From Crocinitomicaceae bacterium (GTDB taxonomy: Bacteria; Bacteroidota; Bacteroidia; Flavobacteriales_D; Crocinitomicaceae), in the NCBI GenBank assembly GCA_030830205.1, contig JAURNL010000062.1, positions 1 to 52,748 on the forward strand: 52,748 bases of DNA, given 5' to 3'. The notes beneath the pieces are model-generated. The model saw only the letters and a list, made by a program, of their open reading frames with translations. It made no database searches and was not told where the DNA came from. This document shows, piece by piece, positions 863 to 19,475 of the stretch. The position numbers and the translations under genes are program-made. The stretch's first letter is position 1. Each line of letters begins with the position of its first letter.

Positions 863-2365
863 ATGGATTTATACGCCTCTAAACAGCGATGGAAATTATT
901 TTTGGTCCTTTTGTCCTTGGCCATCGTCAGCGGATCTTTATTTTATTCAAATCAAAGTATCAGAAAAATTGGCGCGCGCGAACGCAGTAAAGCTCAACAA
1001 TGGGCCTTAGCCCTACGTAAAAAAGCTGAACTTGTGGAGTTGAGTAGTCAAATTTTCACCGCGCTGCAAGAAAAAGAAAGAGAAAAAATAGAACTTGTTG
1101 TCAGAGCAAATCGAAATCTATTAAGTGCATCTGACCTAGGTGTAAGTCAGGATGTGGATTTTGCTTTGGCGATCATCGAAGCCAACAGAGATATTCCTTT
1201 TATTTTACTCAATGACGATCAGTCTGTATCACAATTTAGAAATATTGACACTAACTCTACTCAAAATAACCTTCAAGGGCTCGCCAATGAATGGATTGCA
1301 GCCGGTCGGAGTTATCAAATACAGGTCTTTGAAGGAATGTACATGACCCTTTGTCATGGTTTTTCTAAAGAGTTGGAACGCTTACAGGCACATTCTGACT
1401 CTTTAATTCGCTCATTTAATGCCGACCTCACCGATCAAAAAAGTCTTGTGCCTGTGTTATTATATGATCCAAAAACACAAAAGGTTGAGGCGAGTAATTT
1501 GTCAAAAAAAGAATTAGCTACGGCTAATGTCCGCGCTACGATTACTGAAATGGCTAAATGGCACCCGCCAATTGAACTCACCATAAACGGAGGCGCTAAA
1601 TTACTTTATCTTAAAGACAGCGAGGAAGTTCAACAATTATTTTGGTTGCCATACTTACAGTTTGGGATTTTAGGCTTAATTGTTTTGATCGGGTATTTAT
1701 TGTTTTCAATGTACAGAAAAGCCGAACAAAACCAAGTTTGGGCCGGAATGGCAAAAGAAACTGCTCATCAATTAGGAACTCCTTTATCTTCTATGATGGC
1801 TTGGGTAGCCTATCTCGAACAACAAAAGGTAGACCCCATGATAGCGCAAGAAATGCACAAAGATTTAGAACGTTTAGAGAAAATTACTGATCGTTTCTCA
1901 AAAATCGGATCAGGGGCCAAACTTACAGAAGGTGATTTAGCTGCAACAATAGAGCAGAATCTGAATTACCTGAAAGCTCGCTTATCTCAAAAAGTAGAAA
2001 TGCAATTTGAGCTTGATGGAGAGAGGCCGCTTATCGTCCTACATAATGCCTCTTTAATGGAATGGGTCATTGAAAATATTTGCAAAAACGCAGTAGATGC
2101 TATGGGAGGGATTGGTGTTTTGCGGATTCATATTCAAGAAGTGGCAGAATGGGTCCATATTGATATTTCAGACTCAGGTAAAGGTCTTACCCCAAAACAA
2201 TTCAAAACTATATTTGAACCGGGTTATTCCACAAAAAAGCGCGGCTGGGGTTTAGGTCTTACCCTGGTTAAGCGCATTGTTGAAGAATATCATAAAGGGA
2301 AAGTTTTTGTCTTAGCCTCGGAACCTGAAAAAGGGACTACGTTCAGGATCAGTATTCCGCACTAA
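863..2365 (+). CDS. Membrane sensor histidine kinase
   Basis: N-terminal TM segment, second TM near aa 270, H-box MAKETAHQLGTPLSSMMAW, N-box ENICKNAVDAM, G-boxes DSGKGL and GWGLGLTLVKRI. Confidence 0.9.
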   Translation: MDLYASKQRWKLFLVLLSLAIVSGSLFYSNQSIRKIGARERSKAQQWALALRKKAELVELSSQIFTALQEKEREKIELVVRANRNLLSASDLGVSQDVDFALAIIEANRDIPFILLNDDQSVSQFRNIDTNSTQNNLQGLANEWIAAGRSYQIQVFEGMYMTLCHGFSKELERLQAHSDSLIRSFNADLTDQKSLVPVLLYDPKTQKVEASNLSKKELATANVRATITEMAKWHPPIELTINGGAKLLYLKDSEEVQQLFWLPYLQFGILGLIVLIGYLLFSMYRKAEQNQVWAGMAKETAHQLGTPLSSMMAWVAYLEQQKVDPMIAQEMHKDLERLEKITDRFSKIGSGAKLTEGDLAATIEQNLNYLKARLSQKVEMQFELDGERPLIVLHNASLMEWVIENICKNAVDAMGGIGVLRIHIQEVAEWVHIDISDSGKGLTPKQFKTIFEPGYSTKKRGWGLGLTLVKRIVEEYHKGKVFVLASEPEKGTTFRISIPH

Positions 2366-2415
2366 GTCTACCAACTACATTATTCTGACTATCTTTAACC
2401 CATCAATTAAATTTT

Positions 2416-3192
2416 ATGGAAGCGCTCATTCTAACAGAAATTCGCAATCAAATTGCTTTTTTAACTATCAATCGTCCGCAACAACTAAATGCACTTAATC
2501 AAACAACCATTGAAGCCCTTCATTCCGCGCTTCATTCTGCTGATACAAACCCTGATGTTAGAGTCATTGTGCTAACCGGTAGCGGAGAAAAAGCTTTTGT
2601 AGCGGGTGCAGACATTAAAGAGTTTGCAGATTTCAATATTGCACAAGGTGGAGAACTCGCAATGCGTGGTCAACAAACCCTGTTTGATTTTATAGAACAA
2701 CTCAGCACACCCGTCATTGCAGCCGTAAATGGCTTTGCACTCGGGGGTGGTTTGGAGCTAGCTATGGCTGCACACATTCGCATCGCTAGCACAAATGCCC
2801 GAATGGGTCTGCCTGAAACCTCATTAGGTGTAATCCCTGGTTACGGGGGGACACAGCGTTTGGCACAATTAGTTGGTAGAGGAAAAGCAAACGAAATGAT
2901 TTTCACAGCCGGTATGATGAAGGCTGAAGAAGCATTGCAATGGGGCTTAGTAAATACAGTTGTAGAACAGGCAGAATTGCTCTCTACTTGTGAAGGCTTG
3001 GCTCAAAAAATTATTGCGAACTCGCCAAAAGCTATTGCAGCTGCCATTCGTTGCGTCAATGCAGGTTTTAACACCGGAGTGAACGGATTTGAGGTTGAAA
3101 TTGAAGAATTTGGCAAATGTTTTGGAACTTCTGATTTCAAAGAAGGCACAACGGCCTTTTTAGAAAAAAGAAAGCCTAATTTCAGCGCATAA
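2416..3192 (+). CDS. Enoyl-CoA hydratase/isomerase family protein
   Basis: Crotonase motifs: AFVAGADIKEFA, GFALGGGLELAMAAHIRIAS, GLPETSLGVIPGYGGTQRL. Confidence 0.92.
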   Translation: MEALILTEIRNQIAFLTINRPQQLNALNQTTIEALHSALHSADTNPDVRVIVLTGSGEKAFVAGADIKEFADFNIAQGGELAMRGQQTLFDFIEQLSTPVIAAVNGFALGGGLELAMAAHIRIASTNARMGLPETSLGVIPGYGGTQRLAQLVGRGKANEMIFTAGMMKAEEALQWGLVNTVVEQAELLSTCEGLAQKIIANSPKAIAAAIRCVNAGFNTGVNGFEVEIEEFGKCFGTSDFKEGTTAFLEKRKPNFSA

Positions 3193-3195
3193 TCA

Positions 3196-4659
3196 ATGAG
3201 CAACCCTATCCGCAAATTAGTTGGTCAAACTGCCATTTATGGCCTGCCCTCTATCCTTGGGCGCTTGCTCAACTATTTGCTCGTGCCTCTACACACTTAT
3301 TATTTTGCACAAACTGCTGACTACGGGGTCATTTCCGAACTTTATGCCTGGGTTGCCTTCTTAATTGTTCTACTCACATTCGGAATGGAAACTGCATTCT
3401 TTCGTTTTCTTCAAAACGAAAATGACAAAGACAAAGCTTACAGCGCAGCTTTCTGGTCCGTTGTGGGCATCAATGCTCTATTTTACTTCGTTTTACTGTA
3501 CTTCAATAATGATATTGCAAATGCATTACTTTTTGAAGGCCATAACGAATATGTCGTGCTTTTGGGGACCATCGTCATGATTGATGCTATAACAGCTTTG
3601 CCTCTTGCAAGATTAAGGGCTGAAGAAAAAGCACTCCGTTTTGCAGCAATTCAAATGACAAGTATTGGCCTCAACATTGCCTTGAATGTGATTGCCATGG
3701 TATTCTTTTTCAGCGCAAGTCGACCAGAAGAAGGGATCTTGTTTATTCTTTTGGCAAACCTTATCGCCTCCTTAGCTAAGCCTCTTTTACTATACGACAG
3801 TATTTTCAATGTGCTATTTGTTAGAGATTGGGGGCTCTACAAACGCATGTGGCGTTACGCAATACCTCTTGTCATCGCGGGTTTTGCAGGAATCATCAAC
3901 GAAACCTTTGATCGCATTTTACTCAAGCATTTACTTTACGATCCGGCAGTCCCGGACTCCTTGATTTATGCCGAATCTCAAGTTGGCATTTATAGCGCTT
4001 GTTACAAGCTAGCCATGTTAGTCACAATCATTTTACAAGCCTATCGCTACGCAGCCGAACCCTTCTTTTTTAACCAAATGCAAAACCAGGACCGAAATAC
4101 TGTTTATGTGAAGGTCATGAATGTATTTGTTGCTATGGTTTGCGCTGTGTTTTTGCTCGTTAGTCTCAATTTGGATATTTTCAAACATTTTATCCAAAAA
4201 GAAGCCTATTGGGAAGGCTTGAAAGTGGTGCCCATTTTATTGATGGCCAATGTTTTCTTAGGCATCTACTACAACCAAAGCATCTGGTATAAATTGAGCG
4301 GAAAAACGCAATTTGGAGCCTATATCACGATTATAGGCGCACTCCTAACCATTGCTATCAATGTGTATTATATTCCTCAGTACCAATATATGGCTAGTGC
4401 CTGGGCCACACTCATTGTATATGCAACGCAAATGTTACTTTCTTATTGGCTTGGTCAAAGACACTTTCCCATTCCATACAATATCAAAAAATTCACACTA
4501 TACCTCTGCTTAAGTTTAATCTTGTTTTGGCTTGGTCAGCAGGCTGAATTCACAAAACCTATCCTCAACCACTTATTTCACAACTTCTTGGTGTTTTGTT
4601 TTGTGTTACTCGCATTTGTACTCGAAAAAAACAACCTAAAAGCCAGTAGCAAACACTAA
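3196..4659 (+). CDS. Polysaccharide biosynthesis/flippase (MATE/Wzx-like) membrane protein
   Basis: About 12-14 hydrophobic segments; N-terminus RKLVGQTAIYGLPSILGRLLNYLLVPLHTYYF is typical of the Wzx/PST family. Confidence 0.85.
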   Translation: MSNPIRKLVGQTAIYGLPSILGRLLNYLLVPLHTYYFAQTADYGVISELYAWVAFLIVLLTFGMETAFFRFLQNENDKDKAYSAAFWSVVGINALFYFVLLYFNNDIANALLFEGHNEYVVLLGTIVMIDAITALPLARLRAEEKALRFAAIQMTSIGLNIALNVIAMVFFFSASRPEEGILFILLANLIASLAKPLLLYDSIFNVLFVRDWGLYKRMWRYAIPLVIAGFAGIINETFDRILLKHLLYDPAVPDSLIYAESQVGIYSACYKLAMLVTIILQAYRYAAEPFFFNQMQNQDRNTVYVKVMNVFVAMVCAVFLLVSLNLDIFKHFIQKEAYWEGLKVVPILLMANVFLGIYYNQSIWYKLSGKTQFGAYITIIGALLTIAINVYYIPQYQYMASAWATLIVYATQMLLSYWLGQRHFPIPYNIKKFTLYLCLSLILFWLGQQAEFTKPILNHLFHNFLVFCFVLLAFVLEKNNLKASSKH

Positions 4660-4705
4660 TTAAACATTTTCTGCGTTAGGGTGTTTAAATAGCTACCTAA
4701 ACGCT

Positions 4706-4713
4706 TAACTTTG
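4706..4713 (+). promoter_or_regulatory. Bacteroidota -7 box TAACTTTG upstream of dxs
   Basis: Matches TAnnTTTG; 5 nt before the ATG at 4719. Confidence 0.55.
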
Positions 4714-4718
4714 TTCAC

Positions 4719-6677
4719 ATGTCAAATCATCCGTACAAGCCCGGCCCCCTTCTTTCTCAGATTATAGTTCCGAGCGACCTACGCACGAATTTCACAGAAG
4801 AACAACTCCCACAAGTAGCTCAAGAATTGCGTCAATATATTGTAGATGTTATTTCTGAAATTGGTAACTCACACTTTGGTGCCTCGTTAGGTGTAGTAGA
4901 GCTCACAGTTGCGCTGCACTACGCTTTCAATACCCCAGAAGACCAACTCGTATGGGATGTAGGTCACCAAGCATACGGTCACAAAATCTTGACAGGACGC
5001 AGAGATAAATTTCACACCAACCGTCTGAAAGGCGGAATTTCAGGTTTCCCAAAAAGATCGGAAAGTGAATATGATACATTTGGTGTGGGCCACTCTTCTA
5101 CTTCTATTTCTGCTGCCCTTGGTATGGCTGTTGCTAACAACTACAAAGGAGAAACCAAACGCCAACACATCGCTGTCATTGGAGATGGCGCCATGACCGC
5201 AGGTCTATCTTTCGAAGGGATGAATCATGCGGGTTTTGAGAAAGATGCTAATTTGCTTGTTATTCTCAACGACAACTGCATGTCCATCGATCCCAATGTA
5301 GGAGCCCTCAAAGAATACCTAACAGACATCACTACTTCACATACTTATAACAAAGTCAAAGACGAAGTTTGGAAATTACTTGGCAAAGTATCTAAATTTG
5401 GCCCAGACGCCCAAACTATTGCATCAAAAGTCTCACATGCTCTCAAAGGAACGCTATTAAAGCAATCTAACCTTTTTGAAGCTTTAAATTTCAGGTATTT
5501 TGGCCCTGTAGATGGCCATGACGTCATTGGACTTGCTAAAGTAATGGCAGATCTAAAAGACATTCCGGGTCCAAAAATACTACACTGCATCACGCGTAAA
5601 GGAGCTGGATACAAATTCTCTGAGGAAGGCAACCCAACCAAATGGCATGCGCCAGGGGTTTTCAATAAAGAAACGGGAGAAATTGTTAAAATTGTTCCAA
5701 AATCTCCGGAGCCTCCAAAATACCAAGACGTATTCGGTCACAGCATCGTTGAACTTGCTGAAAAGAACGACAAAATTATGGGCGTTACCCCTGCTATGCC
5801 CTCGGGTTGCTCACTTAATATCATGATGCAAGCCATGCCGAAACGCGCCTTCGACGTAGGTATTGCTGAACAACATGCTGTAACCTTCAGTGCAGGCTTA
5901 GCAACACAGGGAATGGTTCCTTTTTGCAACATCTACTCTTCGTTCATGCAACGCGCTTTTGATCAAGTTTTGCATGACGTCGCACTTCAAAACCTCAATG
6001 TAGTTTTTTGTCTAGACCGCGGTGGTCTGGTAGGAGCCGATGGCGCTACGCACCATGGGGCTTATGATCTTGCTTATATGCGCATGATACCAAACATGAT
6101 TGTTGCTGCACCCATGAATGAAGAAGAGTTGCGCAACCTCATGTATACTGCCCAATTACCCAACCAAGGGCCCTTCTCTATACGTTACCCACGTGGAAAC
6201 GGCGTTATGACCGAATGGAAAACACCTTTCAAAGAAATAAAAATTGGTCAGGGAAGAAAAGTTACTTCTGGAGACGACATCGCTATTTTAAGTATTGGCC
6301 ATCCCGGCAATTTTGCTCAATCTGCTATTAAAATCCTGAAAGAATCTGGGATTTCAGTTGCTCACTACGACATGCGATTCGTCAAACCACTAGACACTCT
6401 TCTTTTGCATGAAGTCTTTAGTAAATTCAATAAAGTAATTACAGTTGAAGACGGATGCCTCATGGGTGGTTTTGGCTCCGCAGTACTTGAATTTATGGTA
6501 GACCAAAAATACCAAGCTGAAGTCATTCGTCTGGGTATTCCTGACGAGTATATTCATCACGGAACCCAAGAAGAACTCTGGGCAGATTGTGGTTTTGATG
6601 CACAAGCTATAATTCGTACTGTTTCTAGCATTTTCCAACTCGATAAAGAAAAAATTTCGCAGCAACATGTCGGTTAA
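4719..6677 (+). CDS. dxs: 1-deoxy-D-xylulose-5-phosphate synthase
   Basis: DVGHQAYGHKILTGRRD, GVGHSSTSISAALGMA, VIGDGAMTAGLSFEGMNHAG, DVGIAEQHAVTFSAGLA, GATHHGAYDLAYMR. Confidence 0.95.
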   Translation: MSNHPYKPGPLLSQIIVPSDLRTNFTEEQLPQVAQELRQYIVDVISEIGNSHFGASLGVVELTVALHYAFNTPEDQLVWDVGHQAYGHKILTGRRDKFHTNRLKGGISGFPKRSESEYDTFGVGHSSTSISAALGMAVANNYKGETKRQHIAVIGDGAMTAGLSFEGMNHAGFEKDANLLVILNDNCMSIDPNVGALKEYLTDITTSHTYNKVKDEVWKLLGKVSKFGPDAQTIASKVSHALKGTLLKQSNLFEALNFRYFGPVDGHDVIGLAKVMADLKDIPGPKILHCITRKGAGYKFSEEGNPTKWHAPGVFNKETGEIVKIVPKSPEPPKYQDVFGHSIVELAEKNDKIMGVTPAMPSGCSLNIMMQAMPKRAFDVGIAEQHAVTFSAGLATQGMVPFCNIYSSFMQRAFDQVLHDVALQNLNVVFCLDRGGLVGADGATHHGAYDLAYMRMIPNMIVAAPMNEEELRNLMYTAQLPNQGPFSIRYPRGNGVMTEWKTPFKEIKIGQGRKVTSGDDIAILSIGHPGNFAQSAIKILKESGISVAHYDMRFVKPLDTLLLHEVFSKFNKVITVEDGCLMGGFGSAVLEFMVDQKYQAEVIRLGIPDEYIHHGTQEELWADCGFDAQAIIRTVSSIFQLDKEKISQQHVG

Positions 6678-6684
6678 AACCAAA

Positions 6685-6705
6685 TTATTGTAATTTGGAC
6701 CAAAA
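6685..6705 (+). promoter_or_regulatory. Weak candidate copy of the 21-bp Nudix-regulator operator
   Basis: TTATTGTAATTTGGACCAAAA; left arm TTATTGTA identical to the 8856 site, 16/21 identical overall; 14 bp before the MFS start. Confidence 0.3.
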
Positions 6706-6719
6706 CTTTATCGACTACT

Positions 6720-8144
6720 ATGCAAAAAACAAACTACAGCGCCTTTGGGACGCTTATTGTCATCTTTTTCTTTTGGGGCTTTGTAGCCGCAAGTAACGAC
6801 ATCCTCATTCCTGTTTTCAAAAAAGCTCTTGACCTTAAACAAAGCAAAGTACTTTGGATTCAAAATACCTTCTATGTTGCTTATACAGTAGGTTCACTTA
6901 TTTACTTTGCAACCTCTTCCCTGCTCAAAAGAGACTTATTCAATAAAATTGGCTATCGCAATGGACTTGCTTTGGGACTTTTGGTTTCTGCGCTAGGCAC
7001 TTTACTATTTATTCCCGCCTCCAATAATGGTGGTTCCTTCGAAATGTTATTGGGTGGATTATTTATTGTTGGGCTCGGTTTTTCATTTCAACAAATGGCT
7101 GCAAATCCACTTGCAATACAAATGGGTGACCCTGCCAAAGGGAATGTTCGCTTAAGTATGGCTGGGGGAATCAATAACCTTGGAACTACAATTGGGCCTG
7201 TAATTGTGTCATATGCCATTTTTGGAAATGCATCCAATGCAAAAACAACCCTAGATCTAGCTTCTGTCCAAACTCCTTATTTAGTTTTGGGAATTGTTTT
7301 TGTTTTGGCGGCGCTATTTTTTAAGTTCTCCAATTTACCTGATCACATTGGCGAAGACAATCAAAATGAGCCAGGGCAAATGCTGAGCACCTTGCGCGAA
7401 CCGCAAGTACTTTTAGCTATGATCGCGATATTCGTTTATGTTGGTGTTGAAGTCGCTACAGCCAGTAACTTACCAGAGTTCATGAAGCAGAACTTAGGCA
7501 AAAAAGAAAGTGAAGTAGCTCCTTTTGTCTCCTTATTTTGGGCTAGCATGATGATCGGTCGTTGGGCCTCAGCTGCCGGTGTATTTGAAAAATCTAAAGT
7601 TTTCAATCGATTAATGGGTATTTTCTTGCCGATTGTTGCTTTTGGAATATTCGCCTTAGCTAACACCATTGGCGGATCTGATATGTCCTCATTTATGCCT
7701 TATATAGGATTGGTTTTTGTGCTTATCGCTGCTGACTTTATATCCAACGGCAACCCAGTTCGTCAGATCATTTTGTATTCTTCTCTCGGTTCTTTAGCAC
7801 TCATTATCGGTATTTTTAGTTCAGGTTATATCAGTGTATTTGCCTTTATTTCTGTGGGTTTATTTTGCAGCACATTGTGGCCGTGTATTTTCACGCTGGG
7901 CATTGCAGGATTGGGGTCAAAAACTAATATTGCCTCGAGCTTGCTTATCCTTATGATCATGGGCGGTGGATTTATCACTTTGGCACAAGGAACCCTGGCT
8001 GCAGATAACTTATTGGGAATACAGCAATCTTATTGGGTAGGTGTAGCATGTTTTGCATACCTTATTTACTTTGCAATTCGCACTTCAACAATTCTTAAAA
8101 ACAAAGGAATTAATACCTTTGAAACCGCAAAAAGCGGACACTAA
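6720..8144 (+). CDS. MFS sugar transporter (FucP/glucose-galactose-like)
   Basis: About 12 TM segments; FFFWGFVAASNDILIPVFKKALDLKQSKVLWIQNTFYVAYTVGSL matches the FucP-type N-terminus. Confidence 0.85.
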   Translation: MQKTNYSAFGTLIVIFFFWGFVAASNDILIPVFKKALDLKQSKVLWIQNTFYVAYTVGSLIYFATSSLLKRDLFNKIGYRNGLALGLLVSALGTLLFIPASNNGGSFEMLLGGLFIVGLGFSFQQMAANPLAIQMGDPAKGNVRLSMAGGINNLGTTIGPVIVSYAIFGNASNAKTTLDLASVQTPYLVLGIVFVLAALFFKFSNLPDHIGEDNQNEPGQMLSTLREPQVLLAMIAIFVYVGVEVATASNLPEFMKQNLGKKESEVAPFVSLFWASMMIGRWASAAGVFEKSKVFNRLMGIFLPIVAFGIFALANTIGGSDMSSFMPYIGLVFVLIAADFISNGNPVRQIILYSSLGSLALIIGIFSSGYISVFAFISVGLFCSTLWPCIFTLGIAGLGSKTNIASSLLILMIMGGGFITLAQGTLAADNLLGIQQSYWVGVACFAYLIYFAIRTSTILKNKGINTFETAKSGH

Positions 8145-8845
8145 TGGGTATGTATAAAATTGAATTTCACGACTTCTTTACTGCGGCCTTCTCTGTAGAC
8201 TGTATTATTTTTGGTTATGAAAACGGGCAAATCAAAGCACTTTTAATTAAACGTGCTATGGAGCCCTACGAGAACTATTGGGCTATCCCTGGTGATTTGG
8301 TCTACCCTGACGAAGATTTACCAGTTGCTGCAGAACGCATCCTTAAAGAACTTACAGGCCTCGATGATTTACCAATGCATCAATCTCAGTCTTTTGGCCA
8401 TCCAAAAAGACACCCACAGGGTCGAGTTATCACCATTGCACATTTCGCATTGGTACGTATAGAAGATTTTCAAGTTAAAGCCTCTTCTTGGGCAGACGAC
8501 ATTAGCTGGGTTCCACTTAATGAAGTGCCAACACTGGCTTTTGATCACAATCATATTCTAGAAAGCACCTACGAAATGCTCAAGCAAAAGCTTCAATCTG
8601 AACCTGTTTGTTTTGATTTATTGCCTGAACGCTTTACACTCAATGAATTTCAACAACTCTATGAATTTGCTTTTGAGCAAGAAATGGACAAAGCCAATTT
8701 TAGAAAAAAAATAAAATATATCCCACTCATTGCGCTGAATGAAAAACAAAAGAACGTGAAACATAGGCCAGCTAAGCTTTTCAGCTTTGATCGAGACACC
8801 TATCTACAACGTTTGCTCGCTAATGAGTACAATTTTAAAATGTAA
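8144..8845 (+). CDS. Nudix-domain transcriptional regulator (NrtR/AraR-like) with C-terminal winged HTH
   Basis: Nudix-like core DCIIFGYENGQIKALLIKRAMEPYENYWAIPGDLVYPDEDLPVAAERILKELTGL plus NrtR-type wHTH FTLNEFQQLYEFAFEQEMDKANFRKKI. Nudix box degenerate (AAERILKELTG instead of AAxRExxEExG). Confidence 0.85.
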   Translation: MGMYKIEFHDFFTAAFSVDCIIFGYENGQIKALLIKRAMEPYENYWAIPGDLVYPDEDLPVAAERILKELTGLDDLPMHQSQSFGHPKRHPQGRVITIAHFALVRIEDFQVKASSWADDISWVPLNEVPTLAFDHNHILESTYEMLKQKLQSEPVCFDLLPERFTLNEFQQLYEFAFEQEMDKANFRKKIKYIPLIALNEKQKNVKHRPAKLFSFDRDTYLQRLLANEYNFKM

Positions 8846-8855
8846 ATTTTTTTAG

Positions 8856-8876
8856 TTATTGTATTTTTTACAATAA
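8856..8876 (+). promoter_or_regulatory. 21-bp palindromic operator candidate (site 1)
   Basis: TTATTGTA-TTTTT-TACAATAA, perfect 8-bp inverted arms. Confidence 0.65.
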
Positions 8877-8939
8877 TGTTTGTAAATTAGACCATCGCTT
8901 TCACTCAATGACGAGCGTTATACAGGTTAATAATCAAGG

Positions 8940-8968
8940 AAACGGAGAGGAGTGTCTCCGTTTCTCTT
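8940..8968 (+). terminator. Hairpin terminator or attenuator-like structure
   Basis: AAACGGAGA-GGAGTG-TCTCCGTTT followed by CTCTTTTATT. Confidence 0.6.
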
Positions 8969-9004
8969 TTATTATAGAATTGATTAGTTGTTCACTTACA
9001 AAAC

Positions 9005-9025
9005 TTATTGTTATTTGTACAATAA
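9005..9025 (+). promoter_or_regulatory. 21-bp palindromic operator candidate (site 2) upstream of susC
   Basis: TTATTGT-TATTTGT-ACAATAA; same arm sequence and overall length as site 1; candidate -7 element TATATTTA at 9039-9046. Confidence 0.65.
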
Positions 9026-9068
9026 TTTAATTTTTCCTTATATTTAACCACTCTAAAACTAAAACAAC

Positions 9069-12000
9069 ATGATCAGAAAACTCGTCATGGCACTTCTATG
9101 CAGCATAGGTGTCACGCAAGTCTATGGGCAAAGCATCAGCGGAACCGTATTAAACGAGCGCTCGGAGGCCATTCCCTATGTTAAAATCACCGTTAAAAGC
9201 AGCAAAAAACCTTTTTTAACTGACGGCAAAGGTCTTTTCCAAATTTCAGTTACTGACCCGCAAACCGAAGTGCTCATTTTCTCAGCAATGGGTTACCAAA
9301 AACTCGAAGTTCCTGTCCTAGGTAAAACCAATTTGACCGTTGTACTTCAGGAGCTTGTCCAGGACACTAAAGATGTTGTCGTTGTGGGTTATGGTACATC
9401 CAAAACCAAAGAGCTCACGGGCGCTACGTCAAAAGTAAAGGGAGAAGACATCGAAAAGATGAACATGACTCGTATGGACCAGGCACTTCAAGGCCAGGTA
9501 TCTGGAGTAACTATTTCGAGCAACTCTGGGTCGCCAGGTGGTTCTTCTAACATTCGAATCCGCGGATTGTCAACTTTTGGAGACAATGATCCTTTGATTC
9601 TTGTTGACGGCGTCGTATATGACTCAGAAGGGCTCAATGCTCTCAACCCATCTGATATTAAATCCATCAACGTGTTAAAGGATGCAACAGCAGGTATTTA
9701 CGGTGTTCGTGCGGCTAACGGAGTTATCATTGTTGAAACAAAAAACGGTGCAATCAATCGCAAACCAAGCATAGAATACAACGGGTACTATGGTGTTCAA
9801 CAAACCGCTAGAAAATTAGATTTATTAACCGCTGAAGAATATGCTGTCATCAAAAATGAAGCTTTCGCTTTTGGAGGTCAAGCAATGCCCTTTTCCAACA
9901 CCAATCTAGGAACTGGAACAAATTGGCAAGATTCAGTTTTTAGCTCAGCACCGGTGCAAAGCCACAACCTTTCACTTAATGGCGGAACGCTAAACACGCG
10001 TTACTCAATTGGCTTAGGATACTTTAACCAAGACGGTATTGTAGGTGCCGACAAAGCCAACTTTGGCCGTTACAATGCGAGAATGAACTTCAGTACCGAT
10101 ATGTCTGAAAAGTTAAAATTAAATTCAGTGCTTTTATTCTCCTCGGACATGCGTAGCACGCTTCCTGAGAATGGAATTGGCTCTGTGCTATATAACACAA
10201 TTAATGCGTTCCCGAACGAACCAATTTACAGCAGCCCAGGCACATTCTCATACATGGAAGAGGTGAGCGACATTATCAATCCCATTGCACAAATGATGAA
10301 CCAATATAACTGGAGCACTGCAAATAAATTTGTTGGTAAAGAAGAGTTTATCTATGAGTTCAATGAAAACCTTTCTTTCACCAATCGTTTCAACTATAAT
10401 TATGCCAACGTAGATAGCAAAGTGTTTTCTCCGCTTGTGTGGTACGGAGATGGCAAATACGCCAATACTGCTGCTGATGCTAGCTTAGCCTCCCCTCAGG
10501 TAGAAATTGCTGACAGTATTTTCATCACTAGAGGCGCTGCTGTTTATGAAGAGCGTTCAACTTTTCTCGATCTTACCTACGAGAGCTTTCTGAACTATGA
10601 AAAGATTTGGAATGAAATACATAAAGTTAAGGGGACTTTAGGTGCTTCTGTATTTGAGCGCAAAGGACAATCCTTAAACGGTGTTGCATTTGGTATTCCT
10701 AACAACTCATTAGATTACGCAGATATCTCTGCCAACACAGCACAAGGAGGCTACCTCAACAATGTAAACTCATGGGAATTCAAAGAGCGTTTGCTATCTG
10801 CTTTCTTGCGTGCTGAATATGCTTACAAAGAAAAGTATCTTGTTTCGGGAATTCTTCGCAGAGACGGCTCAAGCAAATTTGGACCAAACAGTCGTTGGGG
10901 TCTTTTCCCAACAATTTCAGGTGGATGGCTCATTTCAGACGAGTCTTTCTTTAAGTCTGAAAGTATAGATTTCTTAAAACTACGCATGAGTTATGGGGTT
11001 TCTGGCAACGACCAAATTCCAAACTTTGCCTACCGTGCTTTGCTCAACGGAGAAGGAGTTTATGTTTTTGATGACTTAATCACACAGGGTGTGGCAATTG
11101 GCCGCCCGGCAAACCCAGACCTCAAATGGGAAACAACAAGACAATTCAACGTCGGTGTTGACCTTACTTGGTTAAAGGTGCTCAACTTTACCACTAACTA
11201 CTTCATTAAAAACACCAATGATTTACTTTTCCAACCTGATGTATCTGCACTATTAGGGTCTTATGGCCCGGGAGGCTATCCTCCAATCATCAATGCAGGA
11301 GACGTTTCAAATAAAGGTTGGGAATTTGAAGTGGCTTACCAATCAGATCGCAAAAACATCTTGCAAACCAACCTTAATTTCAACTTTACCACCATTAACA
11401 ACAAAGTAGTCAGTGTGCCGGAAGGCGTTCAGTATATTCCTGGTGCAAGTTTCAGTGTGGGTGGTGATGTAGCAACGCGCTTCCAAGAAGGATATGAAAT
11501 TGGCTACTTCTTTGGTTACCAAACAGCTGGAATATTCCAAACACAAGAAGAAATTGACAACGCTACTGTCGTTCAAGAAGGAGCGCAACCAGGAGATCTA
11601 ATTTTTGTGGATCAAGATGGGGATGGAAAAATTAATTTCTCAGATGACTCAGACAAAACCTATTTGGGTTCTGCCATTCCGGACTTTACAATGGGATTTG
11701 GATTTAGTTTTAAAGCACATGGTTTTGATCTATCTGGAAATGTCTATGCTGCTCTTGGTCAAGAAATTATTCGTAATTACGAACGTCAACAGCCTTACGC
11801 AAACCAATTGGCATATGTAATAGACCGATGGACAGGCCCAGGGTCAACTAACGAGCATCCGCGCCTTACGACCGGAGCAACTAACAATAACCTTTTCTCA
11901 GACTACTTTGTTGAAGATGGTTCTTTTGTTCGCCTTCGTAATCTCCAATTTGGTTATACATTACCAGGCACGCTTTTGCGTAAAATAAATGTAGAGTCAC

Positions 12001-12158
12001 TGCGTATATACGTAGCGGCAAATAACCTCATTACCCTCACCCGATATATGGGCTTTGACCCAGACCTAAGTTCCTCAAGTGTACTTTCTGCGGGTGTAGA
12101 TTATGGCATGTATCCACAGGCGCGTTCTGTAATGAGCGGCATTCAAATCAAATTTTAA
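9069..12158 (+). CDS. SusC/RagA-family TonB-linked outer membrane protein
   Basis: Signal peptide, CarboxypepD-reg-like domain, plug motifs VVVGYGTSKTKELTGATSKV and IRIRGLSTFGDNDPLILVDGV; C-terminal beta strand ending in F. Confidence 0.96.
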   Translation: MIRKLVMALLCSIGVTQVYGQSISGTVLNERSEAIPYVKITVKSSKKPFLTDGKGLFQISVTDPQTEVLIFSAMGYQKLEVPVLGKTNLTVVLQELVQDTKDVVVVGYGTSKTKELTGATSKVKGEDIEKMNMTRMDQALQGQVSGVTISSNSGSPGGSSNIRIRGLSTFGDNDPLILVDGVVYDSEGLNALNPSDIKSINVLKDATAGIYGVRAANGVIIVETKNGAINRKPSIEYNGYYGVQQTARKLDLLTAEEYAVIKNEAFAFGGQAMPFSNTNLGTGTNWQDSVFSSAPVQSHNLSLNGGTLNTRYSIGLGYFNQDGIVGADKANFGRYNARMNFSTDMSEKLKLNSVLLFSSDMRSTLPENGIGSVLYNTINAFPNEPIYSSPGTFSYMEEVSDIINPIAQMMNQYNWSTANKFVGKEEFIYEFNENLSFTNRFNYNYANVDSKVFSPLVWYGDGKYANTAADASLASPQVEIADSIFITRGAAVYEERSTFLDLTYESFLNYEKIWNEIHKVKGTLGASVFERKGQSLNGVAFGIPNNSLDYADISANTAQGGYLNNVNSWEFKERLLSAFLRAEYAYKEKYLVSGILRRDGSSKFGPNSRWGLFPTISGGWLISDESFFKSESIDFLKLRMSYGVSGNDQIPNFAYRALLNGEGVYVFDDLITQGVAIGRPANPDLKWETTRQFNVGVDLTWLKVLNFTTNYFIKNTNDLLFQPDVSALLGSYGPGGYPPIINAGDVSNKGWEFEVAYQSDRKNILQTNLNFNFTTINNKVVSVPEGVQYIPGASFSVGGDVATRFQEGYEIGYFFGYQTAGIFQTQEEIDNATVVQEGAQPGDLIFVDQDGDGKINFSDDSDKTYLGSAIPDFTMGFGFSFKAHGFDLSGNVYAALGQEIIRNYERQQPYANQLAYVIDRWTGPGSTNEHPRLTTGATNNNLFSDYFVEDGSFVRLRNLQFGYTLPGTLLRKINVESLRIYVAANNLITLTRYMGFDPDLSSSSVLSAGVDYGMYPQARSVMSGIQIKF

Positions 12159-12169
12159 GTATTCAAGTC

Positions 12170-13630
12170 ATGAAAAAACTCATCTACATACTTTTGGCAT
12201 TTGTAACGATAGTTACCTTGCCTTCCTGCGAAAAATTCTTATCCGTAGACCCTCCGTACGCTCAAGATGCAGAGAATTTCTTCCAAACACCTGAAGACTT
12301 CGATCGTGCACTTACCGGAGCTTACGACCTCCTTCAAGGATCGTTTCTTTCACTTTGGATTGGTGAAATAGCTTCTGACAACGCAATTGCTGGTGGCGAG
12401 AGTGTAAACGACAGCAAAGGACTCCACGATATCGATAACATGACACATGGTGGTGTGAATGTAGAATTGCGCAGTGTATTACGCTGGAACTACACAGGAA
12501 TTACCCGCGCAAACTATATAATGGAACATCAAGACAACATTGATTTTCCTGGAAAAGCACACATTATTGCTGAAGCCAAATTTTTACGTGCCTATTACTA
12601 TTTTGAGCTTGTTAAATTCTTTGGTGATGTTCCTCTAATCCTAGACAAAAGAATCGGTATAGAGGAAGCGCGAAGTATTCCTAGATCTCCCAAAAGTGAG
12701 GTTTATGCCCAAATCGAGGCTGATTTAATTGCCGCTTCCGCTGTGCTCAACCCTGTTGCGAGCCAAAAAGGGCGCGCAACAAAGGGCGCTGCTAAATCAT
12801 TACTTGGTAAGGTTTACCTCTACCAAAATAAATACACTGAAGCAGCAGAAATTCTTGAAGAAGTCATTGCTTCTGGCCAATACAGCTTATATCAAGATTA
12901 CAGTACTTTATTTAGTGTCGCAGCAGAAGGTAATCCCGAAACTGTATTTGACATTGAATATACTGGACTCGAGGGAGGTAGTTATGGCTGTCTAATTTGC
13001 CTAGAAGGAAACGCCGCTGTCGGATTTCAAGGGATCCGTCAGTACAACGGTCCTGTTTATGGAGACGGCAACTCGTACAACTTGCCTACCCCAGAACTTT
13101 ATGCTGCTTTTTCGCCAATAGATTCGCGTAGAGAAGCAACTGTACTAGACATCGAGGCGTTTATCGCAGCACAACCAAATGCCGCATCAATTACATACGC
13201 AATTGGCGCAGGGGGGCATACTGGTTACTACAATAATAAATACATTAAGCGTCAAGGAGAAATAGGGTTACCTGATAACGACCTCACAAGCCCTGTAAAT
13301 TACCGCGTTATTCGATATGCTGATGTACTCCTCATGGCCGCAGAAGCCAATTACCAAATTGGCAATCCTACGCGTGCAACTCAATTGGTGAATCAAATTC
13401 GTCAGCGCGCTGGCATACCTGGAGCATCTGTAAACAGCGTAGAAAAGGTTTACCTTGAGCGTCGTTTGGAACTTTCAGGTGAAGGCCATCGCTTCTTTGA
13501 TCTCGTTCGCACGGGTCAAGCCGCACAATTTATCCCTGGATTTGTTACAGGTAAACACGAATTGTTCCCAATACCACAAGTAGAAATAGACCTCGCTGGT
13601 GGTAATTGGACACAAAACCCTGGTTATTAA
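12170..13630 (+). CDS. SusD/RagB-family nutrient-binding lipoprotein
   Basis: Lipobox LPSCEKFLSVDPP; ADVLLMAAEANYQIG; LERRLELSGEGHRFFDLVRTGQA; C-terminal NPGY. Confidence 0.96.
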   Translation: MKKLIYILLAFVTIVTLPSCEKFLSVDPPYAQDAENFFQTPEDFDRALTGAYDLLQGSFLSLWIGEIASDNAIAGGESVNDSKGLHDIDNMTHGGVNVELRSVLRWNYTGITRANYIMEHQDNIDFPGKAHIIAEAKFLRAYYYFELVKFFGDVPLILDKRIGIEEARSIPRSPKSEVYAQIEADLIAASAVLNPVASQKGRATKGAAKSLLGKVYLYQNKYTEAAEILEEVIASGQYSLYQDYSTLFSVAAEGNPETVFDIEYTGLEGGSYGCLICLEGNAAVGFQGIRQYNGPVYGDGNSYNLPTPELYAAFSPIDSRREATVLDIEAFIAAQPNAASITYAIGAGGHTGYYNNKYIKRQGEIGLPDNDLTSPVNYRVIRYADVLLMAAEANYQIGNPTRATQLVNQIRQRAGIPGASVNSVEKVYLERRLELSGEGHRFFDLVRTGQAAQFIPGFVTGKHELFPIPQVEIDLAGGNWTQNPGY

Positions 13631-13648: not shown

Positions 13649-14500
13649 ATGAAAACATTATTGCTTAGCATACTCAGTATAGGACTTGCACTCGTTGCAT
13701 GCCAGAAATACGAACCCACACTCGGGCCGGCGCCTTCAGATGCTGATGCTCAATTTACAATGGCTCCATCTGCATCCAATGCAAATATTATTGAACTCAG
13801 TGCCTCAAATCCTAACATTCAGTGCGTATGGGACTTTGGCAACGGAACCAAAGCACAAGGAGCAAATGTAACTGCAACTTATCCTTATGCAGGAACGTAC
13901 ACAATCAAATTGACGGTTTTCGCCAAAGGTGGTAGTAAAAGTTCAAGCCAAGAAGTAACCATAGCTAATGACGACTTTGGTTTGCTTAACAATCCTTATT
14001 ACACTATACTTACAGGCGGTATCAACGGGCCGGGCTACAAAATTTGGGTGGTTGATTCAGCTGCCTCAGGTCATATGGGTGTTGGTCCTGATCCAGAAAG
14101 CGCACTTGGTGCTACACCAGAATGGTGGGCTGCCGGTCCAAATGAAAAGCCTGGATGCGGTCTCTATGACGACCAATATGTTTTTCATTTAAATGCCTTT
14201 AAATTTGATATGATAACAAATGGTGAGGTTTATCTGCATAATTCCCTAGCAGCAAGCTTCCCAGGTTCTTATCAGAACTTAGGCGATTTTTCTGCCCCTT
14301 TTGATGACCAAATGAATGAAAATTGGTTGCTTACAGAAGGAGAAGAAACAACAATCACCATATCTGGAAATGCGTTTCTTGGATTTTATACTGGGCCTAG
14401 AGTTTATAGAATTTTATCAGCTACTGATTCTACTCTACACCTTCAATACGGTCATCACGAAGGTGGTCTCAAATGGTATCTTAAATTAAAGACCCTTTAA
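13649..14500 (+). CDS. PKD-domain surface lipoprotein (SusE-position glycan-binding candidate)
   Basis: Lipobox LVACQKYEP; PKD motif CVWDFGNGTKAQGANVTATYPYAGTYTIKLTV. Confidence 0.8.
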   Translation: MKTLLLSILSIGLALVACQKYEPTLGPAPSDADAQFTMAPSASNANIIELSASNPNIQCVWDFGNGTKAQGANVTATYPYAGTYTIKLTVFAKGGSKSSSQEVTIANDDFGLLNNPYYTILTGGINGPGYKIWVVDSAASGHMGVGPDPESALGATPEWWAAGPNEKPGCGLYDDQYVFHLNAFKFDMITNGEVYLHNSLAASFPGSYQNLGDFSAPFDDQMNENWLLTEGEETTITISGNAFLGFYTGPRVYRILSATDSTLHLQYGHHEGGLKWYLKLKTL

Positions 14501-14509: not shown

Positions 14510-15595
14510 ATGAAAATCATGACCTTTCTTTTACTTAGTATGGCTCTTTTGGCTTGTAAACCAAACGAACCAAAACCAGCTGGTAAACCCAGTAATCTAA
14601 CAACACAACTAACCATAACAAATGGAGAGGTTCATGTTTATGCAACGGCAGACAGCGCTAACTTTTATACAGTTACGTTCTATGACGATAATGACTCTAC
14701 TACTGTTGAAACACAAGATGGAGAGGCAACACATATTTTCAACACCTCTGGCACATATAAAATTAGAACTAGAGCACACACCATTCAAACGAGCTTCATC
14801 GAAAAAACTGAAGAAGTGTTAATTGAAATTAGCACTGGAAATACAGGTGCGCCTACTTCAGGATACATCAGCCCCCTAACTTATCCAAATTACACCCTTG
14901 TTTGGCAAGACGAATTCAACGGAGCAAGCTTGTCTTCTGACTGGACCTATGATTTAGGTACCGGAAGCTGGGGTTGGGGCAATAATGAATTGCAATATTA
15001 CAAACAAGATAATGCTGTAGTCTCTGACGGGATTCTAACAATCACTGCTAAAAACGAAAACTTCAACACTTCCAACTACACCTCAGGTCGTATCAAAACA
15101 CAAGGCATTAAATCTTGGAAATACGGCCGCATAGATGTGCGTGCAGCGCTCCCATACGGACAAGGTATCTGGCCTGCAATTTGGATGTTAGGAGACAATA
15201 TCACCTCCGCTGGCTGGCCTGCATGTGGTGAAATTGATATTATGGAACTAATAGGTGGTGATGGGGCTAATGACAGAACCGTTCACGGAACTGTTCACTG
15301 GAGTAATGCTGGCGCACATGCACAATATGGTGGTAGCAAGTCACTAACGTCGGGCAAATTTGCAGATAACTTCCACGTATTCTCTATTACTTGGGATGCA
15401 AATTCTATACATTGGTTGCTTGATGATGTAGAATATCATTCCATTGATACTAGCCCCGCAGAAATGAGTGAGTTTCGCGAGAAATTCTTCATCATTATGA
15501 ATGTTGCCGTGGGCGGAAATTGGCCTGGATCGCCAAATGCAAGCACGATTTTTCCACAAAAAATGTATGTAGATTACGTTCGCGTATTTCAATAA
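14510..15595 (+). CDS. GH16 family beta-glucanase (laminarinase-like) lipoprotein
   Basis: Lipobox ALLACKP; GH16 catalytic motif GEIDIMELIG; YTLVWQDEFNG; WPAIWMLG. Confidence 0.93.
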   Translation: MKIMTFLLLSMALLACKPNEPKPAGKPSNLTTQLTITNGEVHVYATADSANFYTVTFYDDNDSTTVETQDGEATHIFNTSGTYKIRTRAHTIQTSFIEKTEEVLIEISTGNTGAPTSGYISPLTYPNYTLVWQDEFNGASLSSDWTYDLGTGSWGWGNNELQYYKQDNAVVSDGILTITAKNENFNTSNYTSGRIKTQGIKSWKYGRIDVRAALPYGQGIWPAIWMLGDNITSAGWPACGEIDIMELIGGDGANDRTVHGTVHWSNAGAHAQYGGSKSLTSGKFADNFHVFSITWDANSIHWLLDDVEYHSIDTSPAEMSEFREKFFIIMNVAVGGNWPGSPNASTIFPQKMYVDYVRVFQ

Positions 15596-15604: not shown

Positions 15605-17911
15605 ATGTTGAAAACTGTTATTTATAGCGGCTTCATCGCTATAGCTCTACTTTCCTTAAGCGGAAATGAGAAGCCTTATTTTTCTAATCCTACTGCCCAA
15701 GAGATAGAAACGCTCATCGATCAGATGAGCATAGAAGAAAAAGTTGGGCAAACCTGTCAGATTACTTTAGATGCTATCCATCAAACTGACAACAAAGGTC
15801 AGGCATTGATTCCTGAAAGAATCGACCAAGCTAAACTCAAAGAAGCATTGGAAGAATATCACGTGGGATCAATCCTCAATGTGGGCTGGCATACCTTAAG
15901 CCTTGATGAGTGGAAATCTGTCATGACCGATATCCATGCGCCTTACCTAAAAAAAGAACAGAATATTCCAATTCTTTACGGAATCGATGCAATTCATGGT
16001 GTCAACTATACAATTGGCGGTACACTTTTCCCACAAGAAATCGGTCTGGCTGCAACTTGGAACACTGAACTTGCACGTCAAATGGGAGAAGTTACGGCTT
16101 ATGAATGTAGGGCCTCTGGTATTCCATGGAATTTTTCACCCGTATTAGATTTGGGGCGTCAGCCACTTTGGTCTCGCCATTTTGAAACACTTGGCGAAGA
16201 CCCTGTCTTAGGAACTCAGATGGGCCTTGCTCTTGTTGAAGGATATCAGGGGTCGGGTCAAACCGTGGACCAGTTTCACGCGGCGGCTTGTCTCAAGCAT
16301 TTCGTTGGATATAGCGCAAGTTTCTCTGGACGCGACAGAACACCTGCATTTATACCAGAAAAATATATGCAAGAGTTGTATTTACCTGCGTTTAAAGCAG
16401 CTGTTGAAAAAGGGGCGCTTACCCTGATGATTAATTCAGGAGTTGTAAATGGAATACCAGGACATGCCAACTATAAACTTTTAACTCAAACATTAAAAAA
16501 AGATTGGGCATTCAAAGGCTTTGTGGTATCAGACTGGGAAGACTTCATTATGTTACATACCGTTCACCGCACCGCACCTTCATTAGCTGATGCAGCTATT
16601 CAAGCGTTCAACGCTGGTGTGGATATGAGCATGGTCCCATCTAACCCCCAATACAAAACCTACTGTAAGGACATGATTCAAGCGGTCAAGTCTGGTAAAA
16701 TATCAATGGAGCGATTAAACGATGCTGTTCGTCGTATTCTGTATGTAAAAAATCAACTCGGCTTGTTTACCAATCCATTACCAGCATTTGATCAGTACCC
16801 TTTATTTGGTAGTAGTAAATTTAAAGCCATGGCTAAACAAGCCGCTTTAGAATCTATTACACTCCTTAAAAACGAAAGCAATCTGCTGCCATTAAGCGGA
16901 CAACAACGTATTTTGGTGGCAGGGCCTGGTGCCGCAAGTTTAAACATGCTCAATGGTGCTTGGACGCACACTTGGCAAGGGCTTGATACTAGTTTTAATA
17001 CAAAAGGGGTTTTGAATATTTATCAGTCAGTCAGACAACAATTCCCTTCTTCTCAAATTTCACTACAGCAAGGTGTTGAGCTGTACTTAGAGAATGATTT
17101 TGAAGCTTCACGATACAAAGACTTGAACGCTTATAAAAAGGCACTTAAAAAGAATGATGTCGTCATGCTCTGTTTGGGTGAACTTCCTTCTACTGAAAAA
17201 CCTGGAGATATCCGAAGCCTTCAACTAGACGACAAACAAAAAGAGTTGGTTCGCTTAGCCAAAGCCGCTGGTAAAAAAGTCATCTTAGTTTTATTAGAAG
17301 CTAGACCTCGCATCATCAACGACATCGAGCCTTTATGTGATGCCATCATCCAAGCCTACTTACCAGGAGATCATGGTGGAGCAGCACTTGCAGAGCTTAT
17401 CACTGGAAAAGCTGATTTTACAGGTCGCCTGCCATACACCTACCCGCGCTACGACGGCGTCATAGAATTCTACGACCACCCACGCAGCGTTGACCGCTCT
17501 AAGTCTGGTGATTTCAAGGCCTATAATCCACAATGGGACTTCGGTTTTGGTCTCTCCTACAATACTGGAAAAGTGAAAAATATGCGCTTTGTCAACAAAG
17601 ATGAGCAAAAAGGCACCTTTTCTATTGAGGTCAATGTAAGCAATGAGGGTCAAAAACCTATCCTCATGGTAGTGCCCATTTACATTAGCGATTTATATGC
17701 CAGCACCACTCCAGAAAACAAACGTCTGATCGATTTTCAAAAAGTATCCATTCTCCCTGGAGAAAACAAAACCTTAGCATTTAGTTTTGATGCAAATGCC
17801 CTCAAACGCGTTAGTGCCGATGGCCAATGGCGAGCGGAAAAGGGAACTTTCGAAATTAGGTGTGCAGAAGAAATGCTCAATTATGAACTTTTTAACGACT
17901 TATTGTTTTAA
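15605..17911 (+). CDS. GH3 family beta-glucosidase
   Basis: FSPVLDLGRQPLWSRHFETLGEDP, ACLKHFVGYSASFSGRDR, nucleophile region GFVVSDWEDF, C-terminal Fn3-like domain. Confidence 0.93.
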   Translation: MLKTVIYSGFIAIALLSLSGNEKPYFSNPTAQEIETLIDQMSIEEKVGQTCQITLDAIHQTDNKGQALIPERIDQAKLKEALEEYHVGSILNVGWHTLSLDEWKSVMTDIHAPYLKKEQNIPILYGIDAIHGVNYTIGGTLFPQEIGLAATWNTELARQMGEVTAYECRASGIPWNFSPVLDLGRQPLWSRHFETLGEDPVLGTQMGLALVEGYQGSGQTVDQFHAAACLKHFVGYSASFSGRDRTPAFIPEKYMQELYLPAFKAAVEKGALTLMINSGVVNGIPGHANYKLLTQTLKKDWAFKGFVVSDWEDFIMLHTVHRTAPSLADAAIQAFNAGVDMSMVPSNPQYKTYCKDMIQAVKSGKISMERLNDAVRRILYVKNQLGLFTNPLPAFDQYPLFGSSKFKAMAKQAALESITLLKNESNLLPLSGQQRILVAGPGAASLNMLNGAWTHTWQGLDTSFNTKGVLNIYQSVRQQFPSSQISLQQGVELYLENDFEASRYKDLNAYKKALKKNDVVMLCLGELPSTEKPGDIRSLQLDDKQKELVRLAKAAGKKVILVLLEARPRIINDIEPLCDAIIQAYLPGDHGGAALAELITGKADFTGRLPYTYPRYDGVIEFYDHPRSVDRSKSGDFKAYNPQWDFGFGLSYNTGKVKNMRFVNKDEQKGTFSIEVNVSNEGQKPILMVVPIYISDLYASTTPENKRLIDFQKVSILPGENKTLAFSFDANALKRVSADGQWRAEKGTFEIRCAEEMLNYELFNDLLF

Positions 17912-17946: not shown

Positions 17947-17967
17947 TTATTGTATTTTTTACTATAT
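17947..17967 (+). promoter_or_regulatory. 21-bp operator candidate (site 3)
   Basis: TTATTGTATTTTTTACTATAT: first 16 nt identical to site 1 (19/21 overall); overlaps TATATTTA at 17963-17970, also seen upstream of susC. Confidence 0.55.
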
Positions 17968-18017
17968 TTAACCCGTTCTTTAAATTTTGAACACTAAAAC
18001 CTCTAAAAATTAACAAC

Positions 18018-19475
18018 ATGAAAAAACTGTACTTTTTACTTTTTGCTCCAATCTTGAGTTTTTCTGCTCAGATTGAGGGTACTTGGAAATTAGCACCTCA
18101 AGCGGCTGCGCTCGGCGTAGGACCATCTGGTCCAGGCGACATGAGCTGGTGGGCAAACGGTGCTGGAGATGTAACTACTCGCGCTTGTTTATTTGATGAT
18201 TCTATCAAATTTGAAGCGAATGGTACCATGACTCACTACATGGATGGTTCTACTTGGTTAGAAGCTTGGCAAGGTGCACCTGAAGGATGTGGTACTCCAA
18301 TCGCTCCTCACGTAGGTGGTGCTGCAACTTACTCTTATGATGCTGCTGCAGGTACGCTTACTGTAAACGGATTAGGGGCACATATCGGCCTATCTAAAGT
18401 AATTAATGGTGCTGAAATCGCAAGCCCTGCTGCTGCTGCAAGTTCTATTACTTACAACGTTGCTATTTCAAACGGTGGTAACACACTTACCGCAGATATC
18501 AACTTCGGTCCAGGATGGTGGCGTTTTGTATACGAGCGCACAACTCCACTTGCTGTTCAAGACTACAACGTTACTTTCCGCGTTGACATGTCTCAATACA
18601 CAGGTTCATTGACAGGTGGTGTATTCGTAAACGGTACATTCAACGGTTGGTGTGGTACTTGTAACCCAATGACAGACATGGGTAACGGTATGTGGGAAGT
18701 AACTCTACCACTTGCTCCAGGTGCTATTGAATATAAATTCACTATCGACGGATGGAACGCTCAAGAAGAATTTGATGGAACAGAGCCATGTATTGACCCT
18801 GTAAATGACGGATTCAACAACCGTTACCACGTTGTTGCTGGTGATATTACTTTGCCTAATGTATGTTTTGCAAGCTGTGATATCTGTACAAACGATGTTA
18901 CATTCTCTGTTGACATGAATGATTACATTGCTGGTGGTGGCTCTACTGCTGCTGGTGTATTCTTAAATGGTACTTTCAACGGTTGGTGTGGTACTTGTAC
19001 CCCAATGACTGACGCGAATGCAGACAACGTATGGGATGTGACTGTTCCACTTGGACTTGGCGCAATCGAATACAAATTCACTGTTGATGGTTGGAATGAC
19101 CAAGAGAACTTTGTTGGCGGCGAGTCATGTACTGTAACAAACGGAGGCTTTACTAACCGTTCTTATACTGTTGCTGGTGCTGCTACTATTGGTGAAGTAT
19201 GTTGGGAAAGTTGTGAAGACTGTACTACAGGAATCAATGAAGCTACTTCAGCTGTTGCCATCTACCCTAACCCAGTTAACAGCATTATGACTGTTAAAGC
19301 AACTGAGGCTATGCAACAAATTCGTATCGTTGATCTTACAGGTAAAGTAGTTGCTACACATGTTGGCAATGGCCTTACTCAAGAAATCAGCGTAGACGAC
19401 CTCAAAGCAGGTATCTATACAATCCAAGTTGTTACAAATGCTGGTTTAAGCAGCAAGCAATTTGTGAAAAAATAA
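18018..19475 (+). CDS. Secreted T9SS-sorted protein with N-terminal beta-rich domain and two tandem CBM-like repeats
   Basis: Signal peptide; two repeats containing VFVNGTFNGWCGTCNPMTD / VFLNGTFNGWCGTCTPMTD; C-terminal INEATSAVAIYPNPVNSIMTVKA...LKAGIYTIQVVTNAGLSSKQFVKK is a type A T9SS sorting domain. Confidence 0.9.
   Translation: MKKLYFLLFAPILSFSAQIEGTWKLAPQAAALGVGPSGPGDMSWWANGAGDVTTRACLFDDSIKFEANGTMTHYMDGSTWLEAWQGAPEGCGTPIAPHVGGAATYSYDAAAGTLTVNGLGAHIGLSKVINGAEIASPAAAASSITYNVAISNGGNTLTADINFGPGWWRFVYERTTPLAVQDYNVTFRVDMSQYTGSLTGGVFVNGTFNGWCGTCNPMTDMGNGMWEVTLPLAPGAIEYKFTIDGWNAQEEFDGTEPCIDPVNDGFNNRYHVVAGDITLPNVCFASCDICTNDVTFSVDMNDYIAGGGSTAAGVFLNGTFNGWCGTCTPMTDANADNVWDVTVPLGLGAIEYKFTVDGWNDQENFVGGESCTVTNGGFTNRSYTVAGAATIGEVCWESCEDCTTGINEATSAVAIYPNPVNSIMTVKATEAMQQIRIVDLTGKVVATHVGNGLTQEISVDDLKAGIYTIQVVTNAGLSSKQFVKK
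18574..19200 (+). repeat. Tandem coding repeat of about 0.3 kb (two CBM-like modules)
   Basis: VTFRVDMSQY...IEYKFTIDGWN...C and VTFSVDMNDY...IEYKFTVDGWN...C are clear homologous copies. Confidence 0.8.

Follow-up and report, generated by a model that had tools for sequence, protein, structure and literature searches.

The locus raises the question of what a repeated 21-bp palindrome does between a gene for a Nudix/winged-helix protein and a susC gene, which protein would bind it and which genes would answer to it. The source is a 2.02-Mb draft genome (MAG) of an uncultured lake-dwelling Crocinitomicaceae bacterium, and the window is one contig of it, the whole stretch of 52,748 nt analysed here. 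The palindrome has the consensus TTATTGTA-N5-TACAATAA, with copies starting at 8856, 9005 and 17947 and a weak one at 6685. An earlier sequence-only reading took the copies to be operators of one regulon, and this is supported by conservation, dependence on the regulator, AraR-like geometry, promoter overlap and gene content; the palindromes are very probably the operators of the 8144-8845 product, a predicted sugar-responsive repressor of the NrtR family related to AraR. The features concerned are as follows.

6685-6705, + strand, candidate operator O-MFS, weak (3 mismatches), with a likely -7 box, TAATTTGG, at its centre
6720-8144, + strand, MFS sugar transporter of GluP/FucP type (TIGR01272 154 bits, under the cutoff of 202)
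8144-8845, + strand, NrtR-family regulator, N-terminal Nudix domain and C-terminal winged helix (NrtR_WHD/AraR_C)
8856-8876, + strand, candidate operator O1, perfect 8+5+8 palindrome, first site on the susC side
8883-8890, + strand, candidate -7 box of promoter P1, TAAATTAG, 6 nt past O1
8891-8972, + strand, conserved leader and intrinsic terminator, hairpin at 8938-8965
9005-9025, + strand, candidate operator O2, one mismatch, spanning the -33 region of susC promoter P2
9039-9046, + strand, -7 box TATATTTA of P2, 12-14 nt past O2
9069-12158, + strand, susC TonB-dependent receptor
12170-13630, + strand, susD, best solved relative 6gcz
13649-14500, + strand, PKD-domain protein, likely to bind glycans at the cell surface, best solved relative 7kv5
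14510-15595, + strand, GH16 laminarinase, best solved relative the endo-1,3-beta-glucanase 4crq
15605-17911, + strand, GH3 beta-glucosidase, best solved relative BoGH3B (5jp0)
17947-17967, + strand, candidate operator O3, which shares bases with TATATTTA, the -7 box of the CBM/T9SS gene
18018-19475, + strand, T9SS-exported protein with two CBM48/AMPK-CBM-like domains

The genes from susC to GH3 are separated by gaps of only 9-18 bp. The presence of SusC/SusD, a PKD protein, GH16 and GH3, together with their best PDB relatives (6gcz and 7kv5 we take to be laminarin/beta-glucan-binding proteins), bears out the proposed beta-glucan utilization locus and identifies it as a laminarin-type PUL. The same SusCD, PKD, GH16 and GH3 set is found in the laminarin/beta-1,3-glucan PULs of Bacteroidota. 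The likeness of the MFS protein to GluP/FucP carriers scores under the family cutoffs. The CBM48/AMPK-type modules are alpha-glucan-binding domains, here carried by an exported protein of a beta-glucan regulon; in other families, numerous such modules are encoded next to the regulator (loci L299-L307).

Re-reading of the sequence reproduced exactly the four site sequences and coordinates previously reported, the identity of the first 16 nt of 17947-17967 with those of O1, the 16/21 agreement of the weak copy 6685-6705 with O1 and its position 14 bp upstream of the MFS start, and the box TATATTTA at 9039-9046, a second copy of which (17963-17970) overlaps O3. Five matches with up to 3 mismatches occur in the window, compared with a mean of 0.74 in shuffled sequences, and none of 100 shuffles reached five. 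In the whole 2.02-Mb genome, matches with at most one mismatch were confined to 8856 and 9005, both in the susC promoter, and at up to 2 mismatches there were 12 matches versus 4 for the reversed control pattern. A PWM trained on promoters of other species gave scores of 28.8 (8856), 24.9 (9005), 24.2 (17947) and 16.1 (6685), against a maximum of 14.3 in 20 Markov-shuffled windows; in the parts of the genome scanned, the value for the MFS site is similar to those of a few unrelated matches (16.6-18.6). These mismatch counts and PWM scores speak against the 21-mer occurring at unrelated loci at background frequency.

Several further matches were set aside. The fifth match in the window, at 38198 between bamA-like and ompH-like genes, scored 10.8 by PWM and was treated as background, while the 2-mismatch genome matches on contigs C23, C55, C56, C74, C91 and C103 either fall in coding regions or stand alone. 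In close relatives, further recurrent sites turn up inside a coding gene (a membrane protein in an apparent polysaccharide cluster) and were not taken as operators. A perfect AraR-type palindrome, TTAGTGTATTTTGTACACTAA, was also observed at 9272-9292 of contig C111, ahead of a ketoacyl-synthase-like gene.

Conservation was examined in 40 ortholog regions, with counts taken per distinct promoter. The site recurs before the MFS gene, susC and the CBM/T9SS gene, and before GH3 where GH3 leads the operon. At up to 2 mismatches it was present in 37/42 susC, 18/23 CBM/T9SS and 30/46 MFS promoters, the last rising to 44/46 at up to 3 mismatches; the counterpart of the weak MFS site in a sister species, TTATTGTAATTTGGACAATAA, has a single mismatch. 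Upstream of the operon-internal susD, PKD and GH16 genes and of the neighbouring dxs, the best matches in distinct promoters had 3-7 mismatches, equal to the reversed pattern. All four site positions are kept in related gene clusters, with the operon-internal genes at background, and the mismatch counts agree with the predicted conservation before orthologous susC, MFS and CBM/T9SS genes. Across 14 species the mean identity of O1 is 0.99.

The dependence of the motif on the regulator was followed through 200 Crocinitomicaceae genomes, counting sites with at most one mismatch, with the reversed pattern as control, and calling an ortholog at a best match of E < 1e-80 or as an ortholog fragment (genome G076). 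The 76 genomes with an ortholog contained a mean of 2.20 sites versus 0.20 for the control, an approximately 11-fold enrichment, and the 124 genomes without one contained 0.52 versus 0.52. The motif is therefore enriched only in ortholog-bearing genomes, as expected if it tracks the regulator (Fisher p 3e-15; within the genus p 8e-5, outside it p 2e-9, all of these values ignoring relatedness). No site at this threshold was found in 7 of the 76 ortholog-bearing genomes, some of which are incomplete. The same motif adjoins the regulator in other neighbourhoods, namely GH3-regulator operons and, in another family, divergent regulator/CBM promoters. The named relatives of the regulator come mostly from lake and pond MAGs of Crocinitomicaceae/Flavobacteriales, and the same regulator-palindrome switch appears, from these sequences, to be found in dozens of related bacteria.

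The regulator itself scored above the cutoff for both NUDIX (47.4 bits) and NrtR_WHD (67.9 bits). In its Nudix box, R65-I-L-K-E-L replaces R-E-U-x-E-E, so that the catalytic EE is gone; other NrtR regulators likewise have no intact catalytic glutamate pair. The best PDB relative is AraR of Bacteroides thetaiotaomicron (BtAraR, BT0354; 5deq/5dd4/5ddg, E 1e-46; also 5bs6), which shares the domain order at ~39% identity, the comparison resting on the PDB chain segment rather than on the N-terminal letters of the alignment. The protein is thus assigned, by homology, as an AraR relative within the NrtR family and not as a generic Nudix protein. The AraR residues that hydrogen-bond the sugar, R34, R86 and H131, are conserved as R37, R89 and H135, and G47 is also kept. 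However, the pocket residues G48 and F49 (C4/C5 positions) are replaced by D51 and L52, invariant among the orthologs, and F36 is changed as well; with the hydrogen-bonding residues retained and these two altered, the ligand is probably a sugar other than L-arabinose. No araBAD genes are present in the locus, the neighbours of the regulator being beta-glucan genes, whereas the AraR regulon is that of arabinose. NrtR of Shewanella oneidensis (3gz5/3gz6), an ADP-ribose-responsive regulator of NAD genes, shares the Nudix plus winged helix repressor fold, but its phosphate and adenine contacts are missing here: the phosphate residues N43, K76 and R98 correspond to M39, L70 and Q92, and are absent as in AraR.

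The operators of BtAraR are 21-bp sites of the form AGTGTA-N5-TACACT, from which the protein is released by L-arabinose, with subsequent upregulation of its targets (PMC4666351). The present palindromes share the 21-bp length and the TGTA-N5-TACA core, the location before SusCD systems and the tandem arrangement at the main promoter; the half-site is ATTGTA rather than AGTGTA, in an identical geometry.

Both promoter positions described earlier, an overlap of O3 with a -7 element and a location of O2 at the -33 region, were seen in the sequence. The distance from O2 to TATATTTA is 12-14 nt in nearly all relatives possessing O2, and, in addition to what had been described previously, O-MFS is centred on the MFS -7 box. 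The P1 box reads TATCTTCG, TATATTCG or TATATTTA in relatives, at a fixed spacing of 6 (or 4) nt from O1. Such overlap with -33/-7 elements suggests repression; DNA binding by the regulator, and repression as opposed to activation, are what we infer. Downstream of P1, identity among 14 species is 0.80 in the leader, 0.96 in the terminator hairpin and 0.57 in the spacer after it, and an Rfam search of the region returned only chance-level matches. The segment 8891-8972, with its strong terminator, may represent an operator-controlled short RNA of ~80 nt from P1, or else belong to the 3' end of the mRNA for the MFS protein and the regulator.

When BtAraR is bound to DNA, the structure shows Lys179 in contact with the G of operator position 4, and Arg180 intercalated beside this base (PMC4666351). 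The recognition helix of the window regulator reads DKANFRKK; the contacts K179, N181, K184 and R205 are kept, while R180 is replaced by Ala and K204 by His, and all 17 of the aligned orthologs have these replacements, giving K-A at positions 179/180. The same genome encodes an NrtR-family paralog (contig C23, 8721-9476) with K-R at these positions. A GTGT-type box at 8674, 47 bp before its gene, is kept in relatives, and the gene is divergent from those for a BadF-type kinase, an alpha-amylase, an MFS protein and GH65 (2180-9476), making it the likely alpha-glucan counterpart of the window regulator. In the tree, the K-R paralogs of Crocinitomicaceae form a clade of their own.

In regulators of sister families, base 4 covaries with these residues. 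With T-R at 179/180, position 4 was T in both halves at 11/15 sites and G in both at 0/15; with K-R and the same wing sequence, T in both halves was found at 0/14 sites and G in both at 7/14. Over six of the sister-family genomes the association gives a Fisher p of 3e-4 over sites, those within a genome not being independent. A simple code in which Ala180 specifies T is ruled out by the DTRN regulators, which keep Arg180 yet have TTGT sites, and the rule was accordingly widened to positions 179 and 180: together with the K-A orthologs and the K-R paralog, these counts suggest that Lys179 plus Arg180 goes with G and the loss of either with T. Whether this two-residue switch (Lys+Arg reading G, otherwise T) would keep the regulons of the two paralogs separate in one cell, K-A/TTGT for beta-glucan versus K-R/GTGT for alpha-amylase/GH65, we regard as evenly balanced.

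The predicted regulon also takes in an unlinked gene, which is a new target, encoding a T9SS protein on contig C58 (3565-4893), with a site 19 bp upstream of its start (PWM 23.3); most of its homologs in several genera have a site at a similar position. The N-terminus of this protein resembles PDB 8qx6 (E 7e-7) and may be a laminarin-binding module. This N-terminal domain has no Pfam match and occurs as several repeats in proteins of genomes G031 and G071. An operator-like site on contig C44 (4338-4358) lies 8 bp ahead of gapA (GAPDH) in the same genome. Better gapA sites occur in two other genera, and stronger ones in genome G150 and in sister families, but the site is absent from most species of the genus, and for this reason gapA was kept as a candidate and not as a firm target.

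In other Flavobacteriales families, whose regulators are ~46-50% identical, operators of this type lie ahead of gapA, zwf, the genes for 6-phosphogluconolactonase (pgl) and KDPG aldolase (eda), and a sodium:solute symporter; ten such genomes contained 29 exact sites versus 2 reversed controls. These sites provide evidence that the sister-family regulators control glucose metabolism, and glucose would be what links their targets, which are gapA, zwf, pgl, eda and sugar transporters. HexR of Proteobacteria, a member of the RpiR family, controls zwf, pgl, eda and gapA in response to KDPG; the analogy through this gene set is functional and not one of homology.

In the model that best accommodates these data, a regulator dimer would occupy each 21-bp site when inducer is absent and shut RNA polymerase out of the promoters of the MFS-regulator operon, the susCD-PKD-GH16-GH3 operon and the CBM/T9SS gene. 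GH16 and GH3 would cut laminarin to oligosaccharides and glucose, and a sugar imported by the MFS carrier would occupy the Nudix pocket and cause the repressor to let go. The regulator would also control its own expression, because its gene follows the MFS gene in one operon behind O-MFS. Free glucose is the most likely effector, although as a best guess it carries only an even chance; failing that, the role would fall to a short sugar from beta-glucan or to a metabolite of glucose.

The identity of the inducer is where a competing explanation comes closest. Repression by the regulator in which the inducer is a disaccharide from beta-glucan, or a metabolite of glucose (a phosphorylated sugar, for instance), falls just short of an even chance; zwf, pgl, eda and gapA, the HexR/KDPG gene set, appear to be controlled by the relatives in sister families, but the residues by which the S. 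oneidensis NrtR binds phosphate are absent, and AraR, which lacks them too, binds a free sugar. An activator that recruits RNA polymerase at susC would suit the general pattern in Bacteroidota, where many PULs are activated, by SusR or by hybrid two-component systems. O3 and O-MFS overlap a -7 box, however, and O2 spans the -33 region, positions suited to blocking, while BtAraR gives up its DNA once sugar is bound, after which expression of its targets rises (PMC4666351); activation is therefore improbable.

Binding of the palindromes by a different transcription factor, with the motif merely co-occurring with the PUL and the Nudix gene, is improbable to much the same degree. The regulator and the PUL are usually adjacent, so that the PUL is a partial confounder where motif and regulator occur together. 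Against this, the site geometry is that of the operator of a solved family member, the motif adjoins the regulator in unrelated neighbourhoods (the divergent regulator/CBM promoters and the glucose-metabolism genes), operator base 4 covaries with residues of the regulator's own recognition helix, and a separate GTGT box lies before the gene of the same-genome paralog. Finally, the AT-richness of the region might produce palindromes by chance, or the sites might be terminators, but conservation, the shuffles, the genome counts and the 200-genome profile refute this, the real terminator being the GC-rich hairpin at 8938-8965, and its likelihood is negligible.

A full-text search of the openly accessible literature retrieved AraR and XylR (BT0791, of the same family, with a predicted xylose regulon; PMC3878776) as the NrtR regulators of Bacteroidota that respond to sugars, while for laminarin PULs it turned up neither a Nudix/NrtR-type regulator nor its operator.

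Laminarin-type glucan is an abundant storage sugar of algae, and laminarin ranks with the most plentiful of their polysaccharides. Compared with the known laminarin PULs, the present analysis names a probable cognate regulator, candidate operators at base resolution and the genes of the predicted regulon, one of them unlinked, and proposes a residue-to-base rule for operator recognition in the NrtR family. Judged by sequence comparison, this is a new NrtR-family regulator-operator system with an altered half-site and a glucan regulon, which would carry the sugar-sensing NrtR branch beyond pentoses, to the metabolism of glucan and glucose in the Flavobacteriales.
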